Source: Candidatus Lambdaproteobacteria bacterium RIFOXYD2_FULL_56_26 | GTDB taxonomy: Bacteria > SAR324 > XYD2-FULL-50-16 | Length of the DNA stretch: 64,000 nt | Assembly: GCA_001783715.1 (NCBI GenBank) | Contig: MFNF01000043.1 | Location: 24,959-88,958, forward strand | Reading direction: 5' to 3' | Part shown: positions 20,641 through 31,136 of the stretch, piece by piece | Numbering within the stretch: the stretch's first letter is position 1 | Layout of the letters: every line of letters begins with the position of its first letter | Notes under the pieces: generated by a model | The model's input: only the letters and a program-made list of their open reading frames with translations | Databases searched by the model: none | What the model was told of the DNA's origin: nothing | Made by a program: the position numbers and the translations under genes

Positions 20641-22629
20641 TTGACCAAAACTTTGCGTCCAATTTGTTTGCTGCTGGGGCTGGTTCTTTTTTTGCTCCTG
20701 CCTCCTCTCTTGTTTGCCAAAGGGCCGGACAAGGTTGTGCTCCAGCTCCGTTGGACCCACCAATTCCAGTTCGCCGGTTATTACGCCGCCAAGGCCAAGG
20801 GATACTACCAGGAAGAAAGGTTGGACGTGGAAATCCTCCCGGCCGGACCGGGGACGGAAAGCCCGACGGCGATGGTTCTCTCCGGCTTGGCGGACTTCGG
20901 GGTGACCAATTCGGGCCTGATTCTCAGTCGGATGAAAGGGGAACCGGTGGTGGCCCTGGCCGCACTCTTCCAAACCAGCCCCAACGCTTGGCTGGTGCTG
21001 GCGGACTCCAAGATCGGCTCCCTCCACGATCTGGTGGGCAAAAACCTGATGACCTTGCCGCTGCCCGAAAGTGCCGACCTGCTGGCTATTTTTGTCCATG
21101 AGGGGATCCCGCTTTCCAAGTTAAAGCTGCAAAAGATGAGCTTTGACATTGAAGACCTGATCCAAGGCAAAACCGATGCCTTTGATGCTTACTCCACCAG
21201 CGAACCTTATTTTTTGGCCCAAAGGGGGATTGCCTACCGGATGATCCGAGCCCGGAACTATGGGATCGACTTTTATTCGGATGTGCTTTTTACCACCGAA
21301 GCCCAGATCAAAGAGCGGCCCGAGCGGGTCCGGGGGTTTCGTAAGGCTTCCCTTAGAGGTTGGATTTACGCCCTCAACCACCCCAAGGAAATTGCCTTGC
21401 TGATCCAACAGGACTATGGCTCGAAAAAAAGCCTGGAGCACCTGGAGTTTGAGGCGGAAGAGATGGTCAAGCTGATCATGCCCGACCTGATCGAGGTGGG
21501 GCATATGACCCAAAGCCGGTGGGAGTTCATCGCCAAAACGGACGTGGCTTTGGGGCTGGTCCCGGAGGTGAAGAACCTGGAGGGCTTTATGTACGACCCT
21601 CACTACAAGCCCGATTATTCCTGGGCCTACAAAACCCTGGCCTGGACCCTGGCCCTGTTGATGGCTTTGGCCTTGACCGCTCTTTGGGTCTTGCGGCTCA
21701 ACCTCAAGCTCCGAAGGGAGGTCCAAGAGCGGCACAAGGCGGAGGCCCACCTCAAGGAAAGCGAGACCCGGCAAAGGTACATGATCGAACGGGCCCCTTT
21801 CCCCTTGGTCCTGACCCAGAGAAGCTCGGGGGAGATTTTGTACGTCAACAAACCGGCTCGAAAGTTTTTTGTCCGAGATGCGTCCCAAGATCCGGTGGGC
21901 CGTACTACCATGGAGTATTACGCCGACAAGGACCAACAACGGTTGTTTGCCGCCGAGCTCAAGCGGGTGGGTAGGGTTGAAGGCATGGAGATCAAGCTTC
22001 TGGTTCCCGGCGGGGAACTGGTTTGGGCGATGGTCAGCGCCAGCCCCATGGACTTTGGGGAAGAACGGCAGCTGTTGGTCGGCCTGACCGACATCACTCG
22101 GGCCAAGGCCTTGGAAGAGGAACTACGCCGCCGGGCGACCACCGACGACTTGACCAGCTGCACCAACCGGCCCCACTTTTTTGAACTGGCCCAAAAGGAA
22201 ATGGAACGGTCCAAGCGGTTCAAACGGGAATTGGCGATCTTGATGTTGGACGTGGACCACTTCAAAAAAATCAACGACCTCTACGGCCACGAAGTGGGGG
22301 ACTGGGCCTTAAAGGCCTTCACCAAGGCAGTCACCCAGGAACTGCGCACCATGGACCTTTTGGGCCGCATTGGCGGGGAAGAGTTTGCCGCCCTTTTACC
22401 CGAAACCCTGCTGGGCGGTGCGGGTGTAGTGGCGGAACGGATCCGGTTGGCGGTAGAGCAAATCACCCTGCCTTTGGCAGGGGAAGAAACCTTGCGCTTT
22501 ACGGTCAGCATCGGAGTCACCAACCTGCGGGCTGGAGACAAGGACTTTGCCGAGCCGCTCAGCCGGGCGGACAAGGCGCTCTACCAAGCCAAGGCCCAGG
22601 GGCGCAACCGGATCGCCTTTTTGCCCTAG
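20641..22629 (+). CDS. Periplasmic-binding-protein/PAS/GGDEF fusion, diguanylate cyclase
   Basis: A 662-residue fusion. After a signal/anchor segment comes an NMT1/THI5-SsuA-type substrate-binding domain (about 30-320; LRWTHQFQFAGYYAAKAKGYY is typical of the pyrimidine/riboflavin-type binders). A TM helix (about 335-358) and a PAS domain (about 375-495) follow. The GGDEF domain has an intact GGEEF active site (about 578-582) preceded five residues earlier by RTMD, the product-inhibition I-site. It should make cyclic di-GMP in response to a small periplasmic ligand carried by the binding domain. The start is TTG at 20641 with GGGAACGG upstream, so the start call is weaker than the domain call. 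Confidence 0.9.
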   Translation: MTKTLRPICLLLGLVLFLLLPPLLFAKGPDKVVLQLRWTHQFQFAGYYAAKAKGYYQEERLDVEILPAGPGTESPTAMVLSGLADFGVTNSGLILSRMKGEPVVALAALFQTSPNAWLVLADSKIGSLHDLVGKNLMTLPLPESADLLAIFVHEGIPLSKLKLQKMSFDIEDLIQGKTDAFDAYSTSEPYFLAQRGIAYRMIRARNYGIDFYSDVLFTTEAQIKERPERVRGFRKASLRGWIYALNHPKEIALLIQQDYGSKKSLEHLEFEAEEMVKLIMPDLIEVGHMTQSRWEFIAKTDVALGLVPEVKNLEGFMYDPHYKPDYSWAYKTLAWTLALLMALALTALWVLRLNLKLRREVQERHKAEAHLKESETRQRYMIERAPFPLVLTQRSSGEILYVNKPARKFFVRDASQDPVGRTTMEYYADKDQQRLFAAELKRVGRVEGMEIKLLVPGGELVWAMVSASPMDFGEERQLLVGLTDITRAKALEEELRRRATTDDLTSCTNRPHFFELAQKEMERSKRFKRELAILMLDVDHFKKINDLYGHEVGDWALKAFTKAVTQELRTMDLLGRIGGEEFAALLPETLLGGAGVVAERIRLAVEQITLPLAGEETLRFTVSIGVTNLRAGDKDFAEPLSRADKALYQAKAQGRNRIAFLP

Positions 22630-22662: not shown

Positions 22663-23613
22663 TCAGTTCCCCGCCACTTCGGGGGGCAGAGGTTTGGTTT
22701 TGACCGGCCTCAACGCCCCCAACCCACCTTGGGTCAATCCCCAGACCAATTGTTCCTTGACCGGTGCGGCCCTTAGGCTCAGGGGCGGGTTGAGGTCCAA
22801 AAACCGCAACCCCAGCCACAGCTCCAAAGAGGCCTGTTCTGGTTTAAGCCCTGGGGCCAAGGTTTGTTTGCTCAGCTTCTCCCCTTGGGCATTGACGGCC
22901 ACCGGCAGGTGCAAGTAGGCGGGCCGAGTTTGGCCCAATCGGTCGAGCAGATAAAGTTGCCGGAAGGTGGAGGTCAAGAGGTCGGCCCCTCGGACTACTT
23001 CGGTGATCCCGTCCAACCCCTCGTCCACCACGGTGGCCAGATGGTAGCTGGGCAGGCGGTCAAACCGGCAGACCGGGAAGTCCCCCACTTCGGTGTTCAG
23101 GTCCAGGGCCTGGGTGCCGTAAAGCCCATCCTCCCAAGTAATCCGTCCCTGAGTGCGGACCCGGTAGGACCGTAGGGTCCCGGCCATGCCGGTGCGACAG
23201 GTGCCGGGGTAAATCGGCCCTTCCGGCCCCTGGGGTGCGGTGGCGCTCAAGTCTTTGCGGGAGCAGGAACAGGGGTAGATCCAACCTTGGGCTTCCAGGG
23301 CTTCGATCCCCGCCCGATAGGCTCCCAGCCGGGCGCTTTGGTAAAGCACCGGGCCGTCCCATTCGAGCCCCAACTGTTCCAGTGCAACCAGAATCCGGTC
23401 CACCGCACCGGGGACTACCCGCGGTTGGTCCAGGTCATCGATCCGCAGCCGCCAAATGCCTCCTTTCACTTTGACGCTCAGGTAACTGCCCAGGGCTCCT
23501 ACCAGACTACCAAAATGCAGGTCGCCGCTGGGAGTCGGCGCAAACCGGCCCACCGGCACAGGGGAGGGAAAAGCAGAACCGTTCGGATCAGGGAGAAGCG
23601 AGGAAAGGGGCAA
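22663..23613 (-). CDS. gluQRS: Glutamyl-Q tRNA(Asp) synthetase
   Basis: A 316-residue truncated GluRS paralogue that attaches glutamate to queuosine in tRNA-Asp. The class I signature FAPTPSGDLHFGSLVGAL, the zinc ligands CSC in YPCSCSRKD, the distal Cys in YPGTCR, and a KLSKQ loop are present. No anticodon-binding domain follows, as expected. The start is uncertain: a TTG at 23613 overlaps the upstream TPR gene by 26 bases, and a GTG at 23559 just before VGRFAPTPSG also fits. It is the last gene of the long minus-strand operon but is probably functionally separate from it. Confidence 0.93.
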   Translation of the reverse strand: MPLSSLLPDPNGSAFPSPVPVGRFAPTPSGDLHFGSLVGALGSYLSVKVKGGIWRLRIDDLDQPRVVPGAVDRILVALEQLGLEWDGPVLYQSARLGAYRAGIEALEAQGWIYPCSCSRKDLSATAPQGPEGPIYPGTCRTGMAGTLRSYRVRTQGRITWEDGLYGTQALDLNTEVGDFPVCRFDRLPSYHLATVVDEGLDGITEVVRGADLLTSTFRQLYLLDRLGQTRPAYLHLPVAVNAQGEKLSKQTLAPGLKPEQASLELWLGLRFLDLNPPLSLRAAPVKEQLVWGLTQGGLGALRPVKTKPLPPEVAGN

Positions 23614-24265
23614 AGGGTGCGGTTGGAAGAGGGGATTGGGGGGGAATCAATTGGGTCAACAGTTTCCCGGCCCGCAAATTGGTGGGGTCTAAAATCTGGA
23701 TATCCTTGAGGACCCTTATGGCTTCTTGGTCTGCCTTTAAGGCCACCAAGTTCTCGGCCCATTCGCCCAAGACCAGGACATCTGAAGGGTACAAAGGCAA
23801 CAGCCGGTTGACCACCGCCAGCGCTAACTTGGGCTTGCCTTGCCGGCGGAGCAGGTAGCTGAGCCGCAGGTTGGCGTAGTAGTTAAAATAATCGATCTTC
23901 AAAATCTCTTCGAGCACCCGCTCCCCCTCCTCAAACCGCTCCAGGGCGATCAGGGGCAACACCAAGCCCAGCTTGGCATCAAAGGATTCGGGCAGGATGG
24001 CCGAGGCCAGTTTGTAGTATTCCAGGGAGTTGACTTGGGCCCCTTGGAGGTAGGCTAACCACCCCAGCCGCAGGTTAAGGCTGTATCCCCTGGGGTAGAG
24101 TCTGTACAAAGGGGCCATCGCTTCGAGGGCCCTTTTGTAGTCTCCTGCCCTTTCAAAACTATAGGACAGCGAATAAACCGCAGCCGGGTCCACCTGGGTT
24201 TGGGCGTTGGCCCAAGGTCCCAGGAGGCAACACAGCAACAGGGTCAAAAAAAAGGCTTTTTTCAA
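23588..24265 (-). CDS. Secreted TPR-repeat protein
   Basis: A 225-residue protein with a signal peptide (KAFFLTLLLCCLLGPWANA) and a run of TPR-like helical pairs (SYSFERAGDYKRALEAMAPL; ALERFEEGERVLEEILKID; QGKPKLALAVVNRLLPLYP). TPR arrays mediate protein-protein contacts, here in the periplasm. The ATG overlaps the stop of the barrel gene upstream by 4 bases, so the two are translationally coupled. It is the sixth gene of the PqqD operon and probably assembles or positions its envelope partners. No enzymatic motif is seen. Confidence 0.8.
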   Translation of the reverse strand: MKKAFFLTLLLCCLLGPWANAQTQVDPAAVYSLSYSFERAGDYKRALEAMAPLYRLYPRGYSLNLRLGWLAYLQGAQVNSLEYYKLASAILPESFDAKLGLVLPLIALERFEEGERVLEEILKIDYFNYYANLRLSYLLRRQGKPKLALAVVNRLLPLYPSDVLVLGEWAENLVALKADQEAIRVLKDIQILDPTNLRAGKLLTQLIPPQSPLPTAPFAPFLASP

Positions 24266-25101
24266 AAACTTTTTCCGTAGCCAAGGGCAACAATGGTTTC
24301 CTTCAGATCCGTTCCATAAGTGGATTCCTGGTAGGTATCCTGGGCAACCGTCAGGTTCATGGAACTAGTGGCACCCAGCACATAGCTGGCCCCCAGGTTC
24401 GTTCCACCCTTAAAGATCAAAGGGGTAGAATACAGCGTTTGGGCCCGGCCACCCTGGTAAAAGGCCCGCTTGCCCGACCAACTGCCTGCCCAGATGCTGC
24501 CACGGTTCAAAAATAAACTCAAGGTCGCAGAGAAGCTGTTAAAACTGGTCCCCACATAACCTGGGTCTTTGGAAAGGTTGATCATGTCGAAGGCAAAACT
24601 GGCGGAGGTGCGGCTGGTCACCGAAACCGAAGCGGAAGGACTGATCTGGGTCACTGAAAAACCGGTGCCCCCGCTGGTGATCGGATAGTTGGGGTAGCTG
24701 GATTGGCCCAGATCCAAACCAACCGACCATTTGTATCCATTGAACCGGTGGTAGCTGAAGTCCACCGCTTGGGCCCCTTTGTTGGCCGAGGCGCTGGAAT
24801 TCAGGGTTTTGGCCCCTACCGCAAAGGAGTTGGCCAGACCCACCCAATTCCAAACCACCCCGATCCCCAGCTCGTTGACATCGTCGCTGGTCTTGTTTTG
24901 GATCATCGTCTCGTCCATCCCTACCTCCCAGCCAACATTGAGGCTTTGGGGTACAAACAAGGTAGCGGAAACCTGGGACTGGGACTTTTTGGAGGCATTA
25001 CCGTCCAGCCCCCAACCCACGCCGGTCACCGACAAACCGGCGGCAAACAAGGATTGCCAAGAAACCACCAGACCCAAACCCAACAGACTAAGTTTTTTCA
25101 T
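24262..25101 (-). CDS. Outer-membrane-barrel-like protein of the PqqD operon
   Basis: A 279-residue protein with a signal peptide (KKLSLLGLGLVVSWQSLFA). It has alternating polar/hydrophobic strands throughout, many Ser, Gly, Thr and aromatic residues, and ends in a C-terminal Phe (YGKSF), the usual outer-membrane sorting signal. About 12-14 strands can be drawn by eye. The ATG at 25101 overlaps the end of the transporter-peptidase gene by 14 bases, and its stop overlaps the TPR start by 4. An upstream in-frame start is rejected because the signal peptide begins here. It may be the outer-membrane exit or receptor of the operon's system. Confidence 0.75.
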   Translation of the reverse strand: MKKLSLLGLGLVVSWQSLFAAGLSVTGVGWGLDGNASKKSQSQVSATLFVPQSLNVGWEVGMDETMIQNKTSDDVNELGIGVVWNWVGLANSFAVGAKTLNSSASANKGAQAVDFSYHRFNGYKWSVGLDLGQSSYPNYPITSGGTGFSVTQISPSASVSVTSRTSASFAFDMINLSKDPGYVGTSFNSFSATLSLFLNRGSIWAGSWSGKRAFYQGGRAQTLYSTPLIFKGGTNLGASYVLGATSSMNLTVAQDTYQESTYGTDLKETIVALGYGKSF

Positions 25102-27166
25102 GCTGTTTTCTCTCAAAAGTCCAATCTCCAACCTGAAACTTGGTAAACCCCACAACGGAGTCCAGGTGGATTTCGGTGTTGAACTCCCGCCCCAAAGGGC
25201 CGGAAATTTTACCGGTTAAAACCCCTCTTTTGTACCGATAAACTCCCCTGGGGCTTTGGGGGAGGTCAAACAAGGCGCTGCCCAGCAAAAGCCAACGCCG
25301 CAACCACCCTGGATAAAGCAGGTTCAAGGGCAGGCGTTCCTCGTAAACATAATCGTTGCAGCCCCCCAGGGGCAGGCGAGGCAAGGCGAGGAACAGGGAG
25401 CTTAAGAGCTTATCCTGGCCTTGCAGGCTGTAGTGGCAATGGCCGTCATGGACCCGGCCAAAGTAGAGTTTGCCGGTGGTCGAATCAAAGTACAAAGTCC
25501 CTTCCGGGTCCATACGGACCACCAGATTCCGGGTCCCTTTGGGGGTCCCTTGGTGGAAACATTCGAGCTCGATTTCCTGGTCCAACACAAAAGGTTCCGG
25601 CCCGGCTTGGGAGAGCGGGGTCAGGACCTCGTCCTTGCCCGGTTGACCGAGGGTAAAATAGGTTTGCCCGGACAGGTAGCTGGTCAGCCGGAAATCCAAG
25701 GTCGCCGAGCCGGGGTCGGGTCCGGCTTGGACCTGGAGGTGAATGTGCGGCTGGGGAGAATAACCGGAGTTCCCGCACAGCCCCAACAAGGAGCCCCGTT
25801 CCACCCAGTCCCCTTCCTTGACCTTGAGGCTCTCTTTGGCCAAGTGGCTGATTTCCACGTGGTACCCAAAGTTGCTGCGGATCACCACCAGATTGCCCCA
25901 GTTGTTGCGGCTGTCGGTTTGGCCGATCTCCTGGTCCGGCAGATTGTCCACCGTCTTGACCACCTGCCCGGCAATCGGAGAGAGCACCGGTTTTTTGTAG
26001 GCCAGATAGTCTTCGAGCCGTTTGCCTGGGCCGGTAAAGCTTTGGCCCTTGCCGTCAGCCAGGATAAAGTCGTAGGCATGCCGCCAATTGCCCTGGTGGG
26101 TCCAGGGGCCTTCAAAACCTTGCCATACCGTCCAGGCCCCGGAAAAGGGGAGGTTGATGCCGATCGGGCAAGGGTCAAACCGCAAGGCGACTGACCGGTG
26201 GAAATCCAGGCTTTCTTCGGGGCTGCCCAAGATACGTCTGGAAATCTGGGGAAACTTCAAGGCCCCCAGGGCGTAAACAAAGGTCAAGGCAACCAGGTTA
26301 AACGGCAAGGTCAAAACCGGCAGGCCATAGGCCGACCAGAAAACCTGCACCGCATCCACCAACAACACCGAACAGGAAACTCCGACCAGACTGACCACCA
26401 GACTGACCCGAGAGGGCACCAAAAAAACCCCGCCCAAGGCCATACCGATCAGGATGAAGTTAAAGTGGTTGAGGTTCAAAAAAGACTGTTGGAAGCTGCC
26501 GGTCATCAGTCCCGAAATGAGACTGCCGGTAAAGTACCCGGTCAGGCTCAGGCCAAAAAGAATGGGGCTTGCGGCCAGCAACACCAAGGCGATGCCCAGG
26601 CCCACGTAAGGGTGGGGCAAAAAGAAGATGGCCGCCAAACATTTGAAGTACCCGGTCGCCCAAGCGGGCCAATCGGGGTTGGGCAGCAGGTTCGCCGCCG
26701 GGTACAGGCTGGAGACGTACAGGTTGGAATATTTTCCCGAAGCAAGGCTCACCGCCCCAATCACCACCACAAAGGGCAAACTCAGGATGGGCAGAGCCAG
26801 ATAGGCGTAAAAGACCCGGGACAGCGCCAAGGTAATGGCCAAGGTCAAGAGCCCGGCCATCAAAAGGATCAGGACCGACAAGGGGGTCAGTCGGTAGATG
26901 CTGCCTACCCCCAAACCCACCAAAAGAGTGTTGTAGGTGTAAACCCCGGATTCCAGAAACTCCTTGCCCATGCCCATCAGGTAGGCGAACCCATACCCGG
27001 CCACCACCGCCAAAAGGCCGGAAATCGCCAGATGGGGGTTGGCCAGGGAGAGGAGCAAAAAGATCGCCCCTACCCAAGGTTTCCCCAGGAAATAAACCCG
27101 AGAAAAGCTGTTGAGCAGGACCTTAAAATGGCTGATCAGTGCAGTTTGAGGTCCGGGGGCAGACAT
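25088..27166 (-). CDS. Urea-channel domain fused to M23 metallopeptidase
   Basis: A 692-residue fusion. Residues 1-305 form a urea-transporter (UT/SLC14-type) membrane domain with about ten helices. Its two pseudo-repeats each carry the pore signature, LPILSLPF (125-132, Ser in place of Thr) and LPVLTLPF (282-289). From about 350 a periplasmic M23/LytM peptidase domain has all expected zinc/catalytic residues: His363 and Asp366 (HAYD), His441 (ISHLA) and His474/His476 (HIH). A Cys-containing C-terminal domain of about 190 residues follows. UT-M23 fusions are known in databases but their substrate is not established. It overlaps the decarboxylase gene by 31 bases, so it is locked into the operon. 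Confidence 0.88.
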   Translation of the reverse strand: MSAPGPQTALISHFKVLLNSFSRVYFLGKPWVGAIFLLLSLANPHLAISGLLAVVAGYGFAYLMGMGKEFLESGVYTYNTLLVGLGVGSIYRLTPLSVLILLMAGLLTLAITLALSRVFYAYLALPILSLPFVVVIGAVSLASGKYSNLYVSSLYPAANLLPNPDWPAWATGYFKCLAAIFFLPHPYVGLGIALVLLAASPILFGLSLTGYFTGSLISGLMTGSFQQSFLNLNHFNFILIGMALGGVFLVPSRVSLVVSLVGVSCSVLLVDAVQVFWSAYGLPVLTLPFNLVALTFVYALGALKFPQISRRILGSPEESLDFHRSVALRFDPCPIGINLPFSGAWTVWQGFEGPWTHQGNWRHAYDFILADGKGQSFTGPGKRLEDYLAYKKPVLSPIAGQVVKTVDNLPDQEIGQTDSRNNWGNLVVIRSNFGYHVEISHLAKESLKVKEGDWVERGSLLGLCGNSGYSPQPHIHLQVQAGPDPGSATLDFRLTSYLSGQTYFTLGQPGKDEVLTPLSQAGPEPFVLDQEIELECFHQGTPKGTRNLVVRMDPEGTLYFDSTTGKLYFGRVHDGHCHYSLQGQDKLLSSLFLALPRLPLGGCNDYVYEERLPLNLLYPGWLRRWLLLGSALFDLPQSPRGVYRYKRGVLTGKISGPLGREFNTEIHLDSVVGFTKFQVGDWTFERKQHEKT

Positions 27167-28488
27167 TCTCTGCTCTCCATGTCGCTTAAGGTTTCTTTTT
27201 CACGGATTACGTCAACCGTTCCGTTTTCCCGGACCAGCACTACATTGGGCCGGTAACCGATGAACTGCATCGACTGGGTCTGGTTGTAGGCCCCTACCGG
27301 GGAGAGCACCAACCGGGTCCCTCGGGACAAGGAGGGCAGCAACACCCCTTCGTCCACCACGTCGATGTTCATGCACAAGGGGCCGTAGATGACACTGGGC
27401 TCGTTGACCCCGGTCACTTCCTTTTCGATCTCGATGTTGTACCGGTACCAAAAGGCGGAATAAAGCAGGTTGATCCCGGCATCGGCGATGTAGGCCTTAC
27501 GTCCGTCCAAGAGACGCTTGCTGGCGTGCAGAGTGGTGATCAGGTAGCCAGCCTCGTCGATCAAGGCCCGGCCCGTTTCCAGGTAAAGGGTGGGCAGGCT
27601 CTGGGGCTTCAGGTACCGGTACATTGTGGAGGTGATGGTCTCGGCGTAGCTCTCCAGGTTGGGCAGCGAAACCTCGGGGGGCAACACCGCCCCCTTGAGG
27701 CGGCTCAAACTGGGGAAACCGCCGCCCAGGTCCAGGTAGTCCAGCTTGTAGCCCAACTCGGCCTCCAACTTGGCGGCAAACTCCAGGAGCTTGCGGGTCG
27801 CAGTGCCGTAGGCCTCGGGCTCCATGATGTAGGTCCCGATGTGGCAATGGAGCCCGTTGACCTCCAAGAGCCCCTTGGCCTTGATCCTTTTGGCCGCTTC
27901 CCAGGCTTGGCCGGACTCCAGGTTAAAACCGAACCTCGACCATTGAGGGTAGATGCCCGCATCCAGGTTGAGCCGTAGGCCGACCTTCAGTTTCCGCCCC
28001 AATTGGGTGGCCACCTGCTCGCAGTCGGAAAGTTCGTCCTGGTGGTCCAGATTGACGATCGCCCCTTGGGCAAAGGCGGTTTCCAAAGCGTCCATCGGCT
28101 TGTAGGGGCCGTTGAAGATGATCTCCTTGCCCTTGAGGCCCAGGCCCAAGGCCTTGTCGTACTCCATTTGGCTGACCACTTCGGCCAAGCTGCCCCCTTG
28201 GTGCATCAAAGCGCAGATCGCTTGGAGGTAGTTGGTTTTGTAGGACCAAGCCAACTCGACCTTGGGGTAACGGACGGTCAAGGCGGTTTTGAGTTCCTTG
28301 AGCTTTTCCTTGATCTGCCGCTCCGAATACACGAACAACGGGGAGCCGAACCGCTCCACCAAACCGGCGATGGTTTGGCCATCGATTTCGGTGCGGACCT
28401 TGCGGCCATAGTAGTTCCCGCTGCCGTATTTATTGTGGGAACCTTGGGCGAGCTTGCGAACGGAGGGTTTTTGGTAGGGTTCTTTCAT
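27136..28488 (-). CDS. PLP-dependent decarboxylase, DapDC/ornithine-decarboxylase fold
   Basis: A 450-residue fold-III PLP enzyme. An alanine-racemase-like barrel carries the Schiff-base lysine in AWSYKTNYL, His in NGLHCHIGTY and the Gly-rich phosphate loop LDLGGGFPS. The C-terminal beta domain has the YGPLCMNIDVVDE segment, whose Cys and Asp bind substrate in diaminopimelate and related decarboxylases. The N-terminus has about 45 extra residues. It probably decarboxylates a D- or L-amino acid or an amino-acid adduct. It is not an obvious housekeeping lysA because it lies between an ATP-grasp gene (4-base overlap) and a transporter-peptidase gene (31-base overlap). Confidence 0.88.
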   Translation of the reverse strand: MKEPYQKPSVRKLAQGSHNKYGSGNYYGRKVRTEIDGQTIAGLVERFGSPLFVYSERQIKEKLKELKTALTVRYPKVELAWSYKTNYLQAICALMHQGGSLAEVVSQMEYDKALGLGLKGKEIIFNGPYKPMDALETAFAQGAIVNLDHQDELSDCEQVATQLGRKLKVGLRLNLDAGIYPQWSRFGFNLESGQAWEAAKRIKAKGLLEVNGLHCHIGTYIMEPEAYGTATRKLLEFAAKLEAELGYKLDYLDLGGGFPSLSRLKGAVLPPEVSLPNLESYAETITSTMYRYLKPQSLPTLYLETGRALIDEAGYLITTLHASKRLLDGRKAYIADAGINLLYSAFWYRYNIEIEKEVTGVNEPSVIYGPLCMNIDVVDEGVLLPSLSRGTRLVLSPVGAYNQTQSMQFIGYRPNVVLVRENGTVDVIREKETLSDMESRECLPPDLKLH

Positions 28489-29522
28489 GTATGGCCGTGC
28501 AGGGTCAGGTTCTTAAAGTGGGTCATGTCGGTGATCATTTCGTAGGTGTAACGCAAAAACAGTTTGCCTGCTTCGTAGTCCTTAACCGGCTCGATCTCCA
28601 GCCCCAAACCCGCTTTGACCAGCTGGGCCGGGAGATTGACCCCTACGGCGGTGGCAAAATAGACCCAGGCAGGGAACCTGGGGTTGATCTCGATCATGTG
28701 GATCTCTTCGTCCTTGAGGATACATTCCAGCTCAAAGGCCCCCCGCCACTGGTACCGGGCCAGGAAGCGTTCGGCCGCTTTGGCCAGGGCCTCATGGCGG
28801 ATGGTGACCCCGGCGAAGATCTTGTTTTGGGAACTGACCACCAACTTTTTGGCGCTCACCTGGCCCAAACTCCCGCCTTTGCCGTCTCCAACCCCCACCA
28901 GATTGATCTCCTCTCCTTCGATCCGGGCCTGGACCAGGACCGGATAACCCCACTGGGTCACCACCTCATGGTAGGCCGCCACTGCCGCCAAGGGGTTGTG
29001 CACCAAGTGGGCAGAATAAAAGGCTCCCTTGACCAGCAGGGGAAAGCCGACCTCTTCGCAGGCCTCTTTCAGCTCTTCGAGGTTGTTGACCACTTTGGTT
29101 TGGGGCATGTGGAGGCCCAGTTCTTCGGCCAGTTGGCCCAGGTGTTCCTTGCCCCGCAGTTTGAATTGGGCCATGTCGGGCAAAAAGGTCTTGACCCCCA
29201 AGGCTTCCAGTTCCGGGGCGCAGCGGATGTAAAGGGGCAGCTCCAGGTCCAGGTTGGGGATGGCGAAGTTGAGCCCCTCTTGGGCCACCAGCTGGCTGAT
29301 CCGTTCCAAAAAGGCACTTTTGCCCGCCAGCGGATAGGGCATCATGTAGGCCCGGTCCACCAGCCATTCCATGTGGGCCCCCGGCTCTAGGGCATCGTAC
29401 ACCAAGCCCAGCATCTTGGGATCAAGGCCTTTGTCTTCCCGCAAACTCCTGGCAACCCCCACCCCCGGTCCGGGGTTGTCGGTGGCGTTGAGCCCCGACA
29501 AAGCGACCACCAAAGGGTTCAT
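28485..29522 (-). CDS. ATP-grasp ligase of the PqqD operon
   Basis: A 345-residue ATP-grasp enzyme of the carbamoyl-phosphate-synthase-like type. ATP/Mg-binding residues are visible in PLLVKGAFYSAHLV (Lys) and IHMIEINPRFPAW (Glu-x-Asn-Pro-Arg). Such enzymes activate a carboxylate as acyl phosphate and join it to an amine, as in peptide or amino-acid ligation. The N-terminal 100 residues form a pre-ATP-grasp domain. Its ATG overlaps the stop of the PqqD-like gene by 4 bases and its stop overlaps the decarboxylase ATG by 4 bases. Substrate cannot be read from the sequence; a carrier bound by the PqqD-like protein is a reasonable guess. Confidence 0.87.
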   Translation of the reverse strand: MNPLVVALSGLNATDNPGPGVGVARSLREDKGLDPKMLGLVYDALEPGAHMEWLVDRAYMMPYPLAGKSAFLERISQLVAQEGLNFAIPNLDLELPLYIRCAPELEALGVKTFLPDMAQFKLRGKEHLGQLAEELGLHMPQTKVVNNLEELKEACEEVGFPLLVKGAFYSAHLVHNPLAAVAAYHEVVTQWGYPVLVQARIEGEEINLVGVGDGKGGSLGQVSAKKLVVSSQNKIFAGVTIRHEALAKAAERFLARYQWRGAFELECILKDEEIHMIEINPRFPAWVYFATAVGVNLPAQLVKAGLGLEIEPVKDYEAGKLFLRYTYEMITDMTHFKNLTLHGHT

Positions 29523-29761
29523 AAGAGTTTGAGGTATTTGAGTTGTTCGATCATCTCCCCGACATCCAAGGCCGCCTGCTCCAAGGAGACCTCATAACCT
29601 TCGGTAAGGTGCAGCGCAATCTCCTCCGGTCCCTTGCCCACCCGCAGTGCTTCGAGAACCAAGGCCCCGGTGGAGTTGGCCACATAGCTGTTGCCGGTCA
29701 AGGGGTCAAAGGCAAAGCCCTCTTGGTTGAGGGCCAACCGACTGAGTCGGGTGATTTCCAT
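29519..29761 (-). CDS. PqqD-like peptide-binding protein
   Basis: An 80-residue PqqD/RRE-like small protein: MEITRLSRLALNQEGFAF, then TGNSYVANSTGALVLEALRVG and a C-terminal helix ending LKYLKLL. PqqD-fold proteins bind leader peptides and hand them to modifying enzymes. No radical-SAM gene or separate precursor ORF is seen, so it may act on a protein partner or on a precursor elsewhere. The ATG at 29761 has GGAG seven bases upstream; a longer GTG/TTG-type extension upstream is rejected. It heads a 4-base-overlap cascade with the ATP-grasp gene. Confidence 0.82.
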   Translation of the reverse strand: MEITRLSRLALNQEGFAFDPLTGNSYVANSTGALVLEALRVGKGPEEIALHLTEGYEVSLEQAALDVGEMIEQLKYLKLL

Positions 29762-29885: not shown

Positions 29886-31097
29886 TTAACGGACGCAACG
29901 GACATAATTGTTGGCCTGGACCAAGTCCTTTTGGTCCCCCAGCGAGGTGGGCAGGTTCCCGTTGTCGTACTTGGGGTCGCTGCGAATCGCTCCGGGGCCG
30001 TGTACGTCTGAGGTCAGGAGGTAGTCCCAGCAATGACCGAAACAAACGTAATAGGCATATTTGGGGGCTTCTTCATCGGTGGTTCCGGTCCAAAAAAACG
30101 GACCGGTGTTGGTTGTATAGGTGCTGGTAAAGACAGTGGTGTCGATGCTGTAGCTTTGGTTGGTGTAGTCCAGGATGCTGGCCAGTTCCTTGACGTTGGG
30201 CAGCCGCCAGTCGGTATGGGAAGCCAAGGTCAGGGACTCACAATAGTTCATCGCCGCCGTCCAGGTGAACTGGTAGTCGCCGGTCGATTCGGTGGCATTG
30301 GCCTTTTGCCACACCAACCCGGTCTTGGAGTCGCTGACCGTTTGGTCCCCATTGTCGGTCAGGCTGTTGGTCACCCCGGCACTGTCGCCCCGGACACAGC
30401 GGTACATCGCCGTGGCGGTGGTCACCGAGTTCAGGTTGCTTTTGAGGTGGCCGTCCAAAAAGTTGTAAAAATAATTGGAGGTACTCAAGTCCGGCCTGAC
30501 TGTGGCCGACCAAGTTTGCCCCATCATCTGGACCACATGGGTTCCGGTTAGACTGGACAAGGCGGTGTCGTAGGCAATGTCGAAGTACTGGGTGTCCAAG
30601 TAGGGGTTGGAAGGGCTGGTTGAAGAGGTGTCGTCCACCGAGCCGCTGAAGTCGGCAAGGGTCACCAGCTCCTTGATCCCCGGCAGCCGCCAGTCGGCAT
30701 AACCGCCCAGGTCCAAGCCATCGCAGTAGGCGCTGGCGGTCGAATAGTTGGCTTGTCCGTGGTAGGCCTTCTCCCACATCAACCCGGTGTTGTAGTCCAA
30801 GGTCACCTGATTGTTGCTGCAAAGACCAAAGTGGTTGGCCCTGCCGGTGTAGTTGCCGTCTTGGCCGTAGTAGTTGCCGGTCGAGCTGGGGCAGGTGATG
30901 TTCAGACCGTTGGCATCAAAACAGAGGGTTTGTCCCGATTCGGTGACTAGGTATTGGGCGGTCAGATCGGCGGTGGAGCAGGCGGCGGCGAGCGAGCTGG
31001 TGGTCTGGTTGCCGTTGTTGCAGGCCCCCGTCAGCCCCGCCAACCCCAGCAGGAACCACCACCGATTTGGTTTCAAAAACCCCTTTTGCCTGAACAT
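29886..31097 (-). CDS. DUF1566 (Lcl-like) lipoprotein, two tandem domains
   Basis: A 403-residue probable lipoprotein: a hydrophobic segment followed by the lipobox-like LTGAC, then a Thr/Ser linker. Two DUF1566 units follow. Each has a GLMWEKA/GLVWQKA strand, a Cys-containing helix, a WRLP motif (YADWRLPGIKEL and HTDWRLPNVKEL) and a terminal YRCVRG/YVRCVR. Eight or more Cys suggest disulphides. Lcl of Legionella binds glycosaminoglycans and aids biofilm formation; here only surface location and adhesion-like function are inferred. The ATG at 31097 is chosen over an upstream TTG. The barrel gene lies 39 bases upstream on the same strand. Confidence 0.82.
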   Translation of the reverse strand: MFRQKGFLKPNRWWFLLGLAGLTGACNNGNQTTSSLAAACSTADLTAQYLVTESGQTLCFDANGLNITCPSSTGNYYGQDGNYTGRANHFGLCSNNQVTLDYNTGLMWEKAYHGQANYSTASAYCDGLDLGGYADWRLPGIKELVTLADFSGSVDDTSSTSPSNPYLDTQYFDIAYDTALSSLTGTHVVQMMGQTWSATVRPDLSTSNYFYNFLDGHLKSNLNSVTTATAMYRCVRGDSAGVTNSLTDNGDQTVSDSKTGLVWQKANATESTGDYQFTWTAAMNYCESLTLASHTDWRLPNVKELASILDYTNQSYSIDTTVFTSTYTTNTGPFFWTGTTDEEAPKYAYYVCFGHCWDYLLTSDVHGPGAIRSDPKYDNGNLPTSLGDQKDLVQANNYVRCVR

Positions 31098-31136
31098 CCG
31101 TCTTTTTTTTGAAGTGAAAAACAAAACCCGCCCGCC

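Follow-up and report, generated by a model that had tools for sequence, protein, structure and literature searches.

INTRODUCTION

RiPP recognition elements (RREs) serve in the discovery of ribosomally synthesized and post-translationally modified peptides (RiPPs) and are assumed to bind precursor peptides. The discrete RREs of lasso systems recognise the motif [Y/W]xxPx[L/V/I/F/A]; in LppB, D70 holds the leader Tyr, N33 and F74 hold the Pro, and F74, M78 and L83, among others, hold the +5 residue, and the substitution N33A nearly abolishes binding (PMC13381572). Motifs of the W/Y/LxxP type are common to several RRE groups (PMC12710340). Here we analyse a stretch of 64,000 nucleotides from Candidatus Lambdaproteobacteria bacterium RIFOXYD2_FULL_56_26, of the SAR324 group (contig MFNF01000043.1, positions 24,959 to 88,958; 'the window'), in which six minus-strand open reading frames (ORFs) at 23588–29761 encode a PqqD-like RRE, an ATP-grasp ligase, a pyridoxal 5'-phosphate (PLP) decarboxylase, a urea-transporter (UT) channel fused to an M23 metallopeptidase (UT-M23), an outer-membrane beta-barrel-like protein and a tetratricopeptide repeat (TPR) protein. 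Together these genes appear to make a small compound derived from an amino acid through RiPP-type recognition, with the 'handle' borne by an enzyme.

With the lasso/LPP RREs (TfuB1/FusB1, TbiB1, LppB) the cassette shares the PqqD fold, the contact register and the [YW]xxPx[hydrophobic] ligand motif, but it carries this motif at the N terminus of a 450-aa PLP enzyme rather than on a precursor peptide. An Asn-synthetase-like lactam (lasso) cyclase, a B2 protease and an HprK-like kinase are absent from the six genes, and the other neighbours are not conserved. The FigC/FslC clade of decarboxylases, with SbnH, AcsE, MccE and BtrK, includes enzymes that handle conjugated or carrier-bound amino acids, and M355 of FigC replaces the acidic residue that stands beside the catalytic Cys of ornithine decarboxylase (ODC) and diaminopimelate decarboxylase (DAPDC) and reads the free side-chain amine (PMC7857480). 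The cassette enzyme has the Cys-Met motif of this clade, but it also has a leader-like tail, and its partners are an ATP-grasp ligase and an RRE instead of an NRPS-independent siderophore synthetase. Butirosin synthesis (BtrJ/BtrI/BtrK) likewise combines an ATP-grasp ligase, BtrJ, with a fold-III PLP decarboxylase and proceeds on a carrier-bound amino acid, whereas the cassette has an RRE and a tail in place of an acyl carrier protein, and adds a channel-peptidase and envelope proteins. Pearlins such as 3-thiaglutamate and ammosamide are assembled by amide linkage on a ribosomal carrier peptide (PMC9303977) and released by a protease, an idea that the cassette would share; in contrast to those pathways it has neither a PEARL ligase nor a separate scaffold peptide, and loading would fall to the ATP-grasp enzyme. 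As a whole, the cassette fits none of the families tested.

RESULTS

A leader-like tail on the decarboxylase

The decarboxylase (450 aa; 27136–28488; Pfam Orn/DAP/Arg decarboxylase, 9.6e-33) begins with about 30 residues that precede its LysA-like domain and are predicted to be disordered (predicted local distance difference test score, pLDDT, < 50 at residues 1–30 of the structure model; 28399–28488), with the sequence YQKPSV at residues 5–10 (28459–28476). Most homologues share the tail sequence M(K)KxYEKPVIxKLxTGxMNKFG, many Pseudomonadota have WxKPxLxxHxxGxLNKFG, and the common form [YW]xKPx[ILFV]...G..NKFG has few exceptions among 65 distinct sequences. In these 65 tails, which were selected by the Tyr/Trp–Pro pattern itself, every sequence opens the motif with Tyr or Trp, has Pro at +3 and continues with Ile, Leu, Phe or Val at +5; 61 have Gly at +11, 59 have Asn at +14 and 61 have Lys at +15 (K20 in the window; 28429–28431), and conservation of the NKFG block is close to that of the YxxP block. 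Homologue genes were called in this analysis with starts assigned mechanically, and among the decarboxylase homologues listed none with a complete N terminus lacks the pattern. The background, drawn from neighbouring genes only, is 6 occurrences of [YW]xxPx[LIVFA] within the first 40 residues of 355 genes. Moreover, the tail is missing from the canonical LysA paralogues that these genomes encode, and the motif is kept even when decarboxylase and PqqD lie at separate loci (L064/L065). A match of the tail to DUF5972 was weak (12.3 bits against a cut-off of 22.6) and was not used as evidence.

The PqqD-like protein (80 aa; 29519–29761; PF05402, 1.5e-9) is the single PqqD match of the host genome, and its nearest solved relatives by sequence are the lasso RREs TfuB1 (1e-10) and TbiB1 (8e-9). 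The LppB register N33-D70-F74-M78-L83 corresponds with exact spacing to N29-D66-F70-L74-L79 in the cassette PqqD family, a correspondence based on residue spacing and the TfuB1/TbiB1 alignment, not on the sequence of LppB itself. Across 65 distinct PqqD sequences D66 is found in 65 and N29 in 63, and position 70, Phe in nearly all homologues, is Met in the window. The fold and the leader-contact residues (N29/D66/F70) of an RRE-dependent RiPP system are hence present, and no recurrent motif-bearing small ORF that could encode a separate short precursor was found near the cassettes. Considering that the tail carries the ligand motif of lasso-type RREs and that the PqqD-like protein is nearest to such RREs, the leader is therefore probably the enzyme's own N-terminal tail and not a separate precursor; the PqqD-like protein, we suggest, probably binds this tail, although docking is deduced from the two sequences. 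The original prediction, made from the DNA alone, had stated that no short precursor is seen, which holds for a separate peptide beside the six genes but overlooked the leader-like sequence on the decarboxylase. In locus L146, the RRE and a DNA-binding regulator may be joined in one protein.

Conservation of the six genes

The six ORFs overlap successively by 4, 4, 31, 14 and 4 bases, exactly as had been read from the window. Their order (PqqD, ATP-grasp, decarboxylase, UT-M23, barrel, TPR) is also found in Aquificota, Desulfobacterota, Pseudomonadota, Verrucomicrobiota and further groups. With the UT-M23 alignment as query, a scan of GTDB contigs gave 14 loci in metagenome-assembled genomes (MAGs) labelled Aquificota (several), Verrucomicrobia, Desulfofervidaceae, Hippea/Desulfurellaceae, WOR-3, Deltaproteobacteria, Cellvibrionaceae and Lambdaproteobacteria, most of them with the identical six-gene order up to contig limits. 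A relative of the same family, Candidatus Lambdaproteobacteria bacterium RIFOXYD2_FULL_50_16 (G003), also has the cassette, with the same locus on L033 and L038, and the special decarboxylase was found in 13/13 other host genomes searched, three of which have UT-M23 at a different locus.

Among 136 Aquificota genomes the decarboxylase, the ligase and UT-M23 were each found in 42 and PqqD in 44; all four occur together in 40, even where the loci are dispersed, and six genomes hold a partial set, for which fragmentation is a possible cause. Sampling was partial outside Aquificota, where absence from a MAG may again reflect fragmentation: of 399 Pseudomonadota genomes, 37 have the decarboxylase, 34 UT-M23 and 30 both, and the decarboxylase occurs in 15 of 395 genomes of the phylum to which the Desulfofervidaceae genome belongs. 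Of the genomes sampled, about 31% in Aquificota and 9% in Pseudomonadota thus contain the cassette. Because gene order and co-occurrence are conserved across phyla, in Aquificota and Pseudomonadota alike, chance assembly of the six genes was ruled out; had it been the case, the ATP-grasp and decarboxylase genes were expected mostly apart from PqqD and UT-M23, which is not what the 40 Aquificota genomes with all four genes show. The operon that the original prediction took to be undescribed is a real, conserved six-gene system, and the neighbourhood comparison that it had proposed recovers the set across phyla with no seventh conserved gene, the genes flanking the six varying from locus to locus. 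Distances of PqqD, ligase, decarboxylase and UT-M23 correlate across 49 loci (r = 0.87–0.95), which is a mark of shared history, not of interaction. In the open-access literature we found no paper that joins PqqD with a urea transporter and a decarboxylase; no UT-M23 relative was found on viral contigs and no decarboxylase relative on plasmids.

Individual loci depart from this arrangement. L150 (G759) has PqqD, ligase and decarboxylase together, with UT-M23, barrel and TPR not adjacent, and in G639, G663, G667 and G727 UT-M23 is present and the decarboxylase unmatched at 1e-120. Secreted-looking Cys-rich small ORFs (e.g. ...GSCCPCTKRCFNPCKPCKPCKCLRR) lie between ligase and decarboxylase in L088, L089, L094 and L098, and a cytochrome c-like ORF lies there in L099. 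A single in-frame TGA interrupts otherwise intact genes for the decarboxylase (G186, L113) and UT-M23 (G201), which may be a pseudogene, a sequencing error or recoding.

Active sites of the decarboxylase and the ligase

The nearest solved relative of the decarboxylase both by profile (7e-79) and by fold (1.6e-33) is the N-citrylornithine decarboxylase 7kh2, to which it is about 31% identical in structural alignment. C372-M373, which matches C354-M355 of FigC, is found in 78/78 homologues, and K84, H214, R307 and Y401 are likewise invariant, so that the enzyme has the AR-fold of the FigC-type PLP decarboxylases together with their Met beside the catalytic Cys. It scores 229 bits against the NCBIfam FslC model (cut-off 500), and the same substrate is not claimed; against lysA it scores 209 bits (cut-off 297.9), with Met at the acidic position of LysA, and it falls below the NCBIfam cut-offs of every other curated decarboxylase too. 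At least 7 of the 13 host genomes also encode a LysA distinct from it. These active-site residues and the coexisting LysA rule out a plain DapDC, and the earlier label 'DapDC-like' has to be replaced by a likeness to N-citrylornithine decarboxylase. We suggest that the substrate is probably a conjugated amino acid.

The ATP-grasp ligase (345 aa; 28485–29522; CPS-like/PRK12767 type; several Pfam ATP-grasp models, best 1.6e-8) has K125, K165, E264, E278, N280 and R282 invariant in 73 homologues, and the M23 residues H357, D366, H441, H474 and H476 (zinc ligands and catalytic His), as expected of an M23 peptidase, are kept in 73/73. Since the catalytic residues are invariant, all three enzymes are predicted to be active.

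The UT-M23 channel-peptidase and the envelope proteins

UT-M23 (692 aa; 25088–27166; Pfam matches to both domains) is a predicted inner-membrane protein made up of an SLC14-type UT channel (residues 15–299; 26270–27124; PF03253, 8.7e-59), an M23 metallopeptidase core (residues 357–481; 25724–26098; Peptidase_M23, 3e-12) and a C-terminal beta domain. The UT fold is complete and aligns over its full length with dvUT and UT-B (dvUT 3k3f over 335 columns, TM-score 0.80 by target length); unlike these, the cassette protein adds the M23 and beta domains, and at the position of dvUT E187 it has Ala, Thr, Ser or Cys in 12/12 UT-M23 sequences. To judge from these residues, the permeant of the channel need not be urea, although UT-A2 too differs at this position (PMC4357013).

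UT family members have their N and C termini inside. With a ten-helix assignment taken from knowledge of the family and loop charges summed by hand, the loops on the side of the N and C termini average about 9.8 Lys/Arg and those on the opposite side about 2.1, and the structure model places no additional transmembrane helix ahead of the M23 domain. Given this positive-inside pattern and the topology of the family (N-in/C-in), the M23 and C-terminal beta domains are predicted to be cytoplasmic. The channel-peptidase fusion that had been proposed therefore stands as regards its UT and M23 domains, while a periplasmic location of the peptidase is probably wrong in view of the charge pattern and UT homology.

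The outer-membrane beta-barrel-like protein (24262–25101) has a signal-peptide-like N terminus and a sequence that looks rich in beta-strands; it matched no significant family in a Pfam search and evolves fast, yet its position in the cassette is conserved. Its conserved partner, the TPR protein (23588–24265; Pfam TPR, 4.8e-14), has a signal-peptide-like start and is predicted to be secreted. In L151 and L152 the region immediately upstream of the cassette contains a second barrel–TPR pair in divergent orientation, which suggests that barrel and TPR form a unit.

DISCUSSION

Considering the cassette and its co-occurrence, the tail motif, the RRE contact residues, the catalytic residues and the relationship to FigC, we lean, on balance, towards an RRE-guided biosynthesis-and-export cassette that works without a precursor peptide, the decarboxylase tail being the RRE ligand. 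We infer docking, reaction order, the role of the channel and, solely from charges and homology, the side of the M23 domain, as follows. The RRE would grip the leader-like tail and so gather ligase and decarboxylase; the ligase would make an amide bond between an amino acid and an acceptor (a small acid or amine, possibly K20 of the tail); the FigC/BtrK-like decarboxylase, while docked through PqqD, would strip the carboxylate off the conjugated amino acid; the M23 domain would cut the conjugate in the cytoplasm, at the mouth of its fused urea-type channel; and channel and barrel/TPR pair would let the small product, or a by-product, cross the envelope. The succession of cytoplasmic recognition, ligation and decarboxylation, then membrane and envelope steps, foreseen in the original prediction, is supported by our analysis.

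Several observations weigh against this scheme. The tail is below the cut-off of every Pfam and NCBIfam model, and a small clade with an otherwise complete cassette (L113–L115) has REK/RDK in place of K20. At the thresholds used, 7 of the 37 Pseudomonadota genomes with the decarboxylase have no UT-M23 match and four with UT-M23 have no decarboxylase match. TetR-like fusions of PqqD in several Pseudomonadota hint at a regulatory role. Further, the switch between Tyr and Trp in the tail is unaccompanied by a change of the Asn/Asp at the RRE positions, unlike in paeninodin systems: the predicted pairing of a Tyr-to-Trp switch with loss of N29/D66 was not seen in the 65 distinct sequences. We regard this missing co-variation as neutral, because LppB itself tolerates Trp.

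A more specific form of the scheme, which we put forward tentatively and hold to be possible rather than probable, makes the tail a covalent carrier and the enzyme its own carrier, which would be a new class. It would be akin to pearlin carrier peptides or to the ACP-bound glutamate of butirosin synthesis. Here PqqD would present the disordered tail, the ligase would load an amino acid on the tail lysine, decarboxylation would take place in cis or within a dimer, and the channel-fused M23 domain, being predicted cytoplasmic, would supply the release step. The high conservation of Lys +15 within the NKFG block fits such a carrier, as do the conjugated substrates of FigC-type enzymes, with BtrK and MccE in the clade, and the pearlin precedent; the displacement of K20 in L113–L115, however, weakens it as an obligate tether.

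Alternatively, the PqqD-like protein may sense the free decarboxylase or the loaded tail and tune expression or activity, without organising catalysis, which we consider unlikely. In its favour, the Pseudomonadota loci L146, L148, L154, L156 and L157 encode proteins of 263–276 aa in which the PqqD domain follows an N-terminal part of ~190 aa, and this part of the L146 fusion matches TetR_N above the Pfam cut-off; a second fused protein examined, however, gave no significant TetR match, and most loci, including the window, have a stand-alone PqqD of ~80 aa with no DNA-binding domain. Moreover, PqqD is there first in the operon and adjoins the ligase, and the two usually stay together where the other genes are scattered.

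It is less likely still that the RRE ligand is a short peptide encoded elsewhere in the genome and the tail motif incidental. Discrete RREs that have been well studied do act on separate precursors, small ORFs are poorly detected, and some Aquificota have Cys-rich small ORFs between the ligase and decarboxylase genes; but these Cys-rich ORFs are clade-limited and have no motif, the motif-bearing small ORFs near cassettes are only 28, scattered, unrelated and none of them recurrent, and the tail motif persists at L064/L065 away from PqqD. Ordinary polyamine or lysine metabolism, with a DAP/ornithine decarboxylase beside transport genes, is highly improbable, for the fold and superfamily are shared with LysA/ODC, but the separate LysA, the FigC-like Met in 78/78, the sub-cut-off scores and the conserved company of an RRE and an ATP-grasp ligase all speak against it.

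If the scheme with the decarboxylase tail as RRE ligand is true, an enzyme-borne leader would widen the roles of RREs and change the annotation of stand-alone PqqD-like genes, and the UT-M23 fusion family would gain a pathway. M23 peptidases are known for cell-wall cutting; the scheme would imply a cytoplasmic role for one of them.

Finally, the surroundings of the cassette in the window can be described. A GluQRS ORF (22663–23613, minus strand, from a TTG start) shares 26 bases with the TPR gene and may be co-transcribed with it, but the comparison of neighbours across loci places it outside the conserved genes. Just upstream of the cassette, 29886–31124 (minus strand) encodes Lcl_C domains (5e-42) behind a lipoprotein-like start and is not conserved with the cassette. 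On the plus strand, 20641–22629 encodes a sensor diguanylate cyclase composed of an NMT1/THI5-like periplasmic binding domain, PAS and GGDEF.

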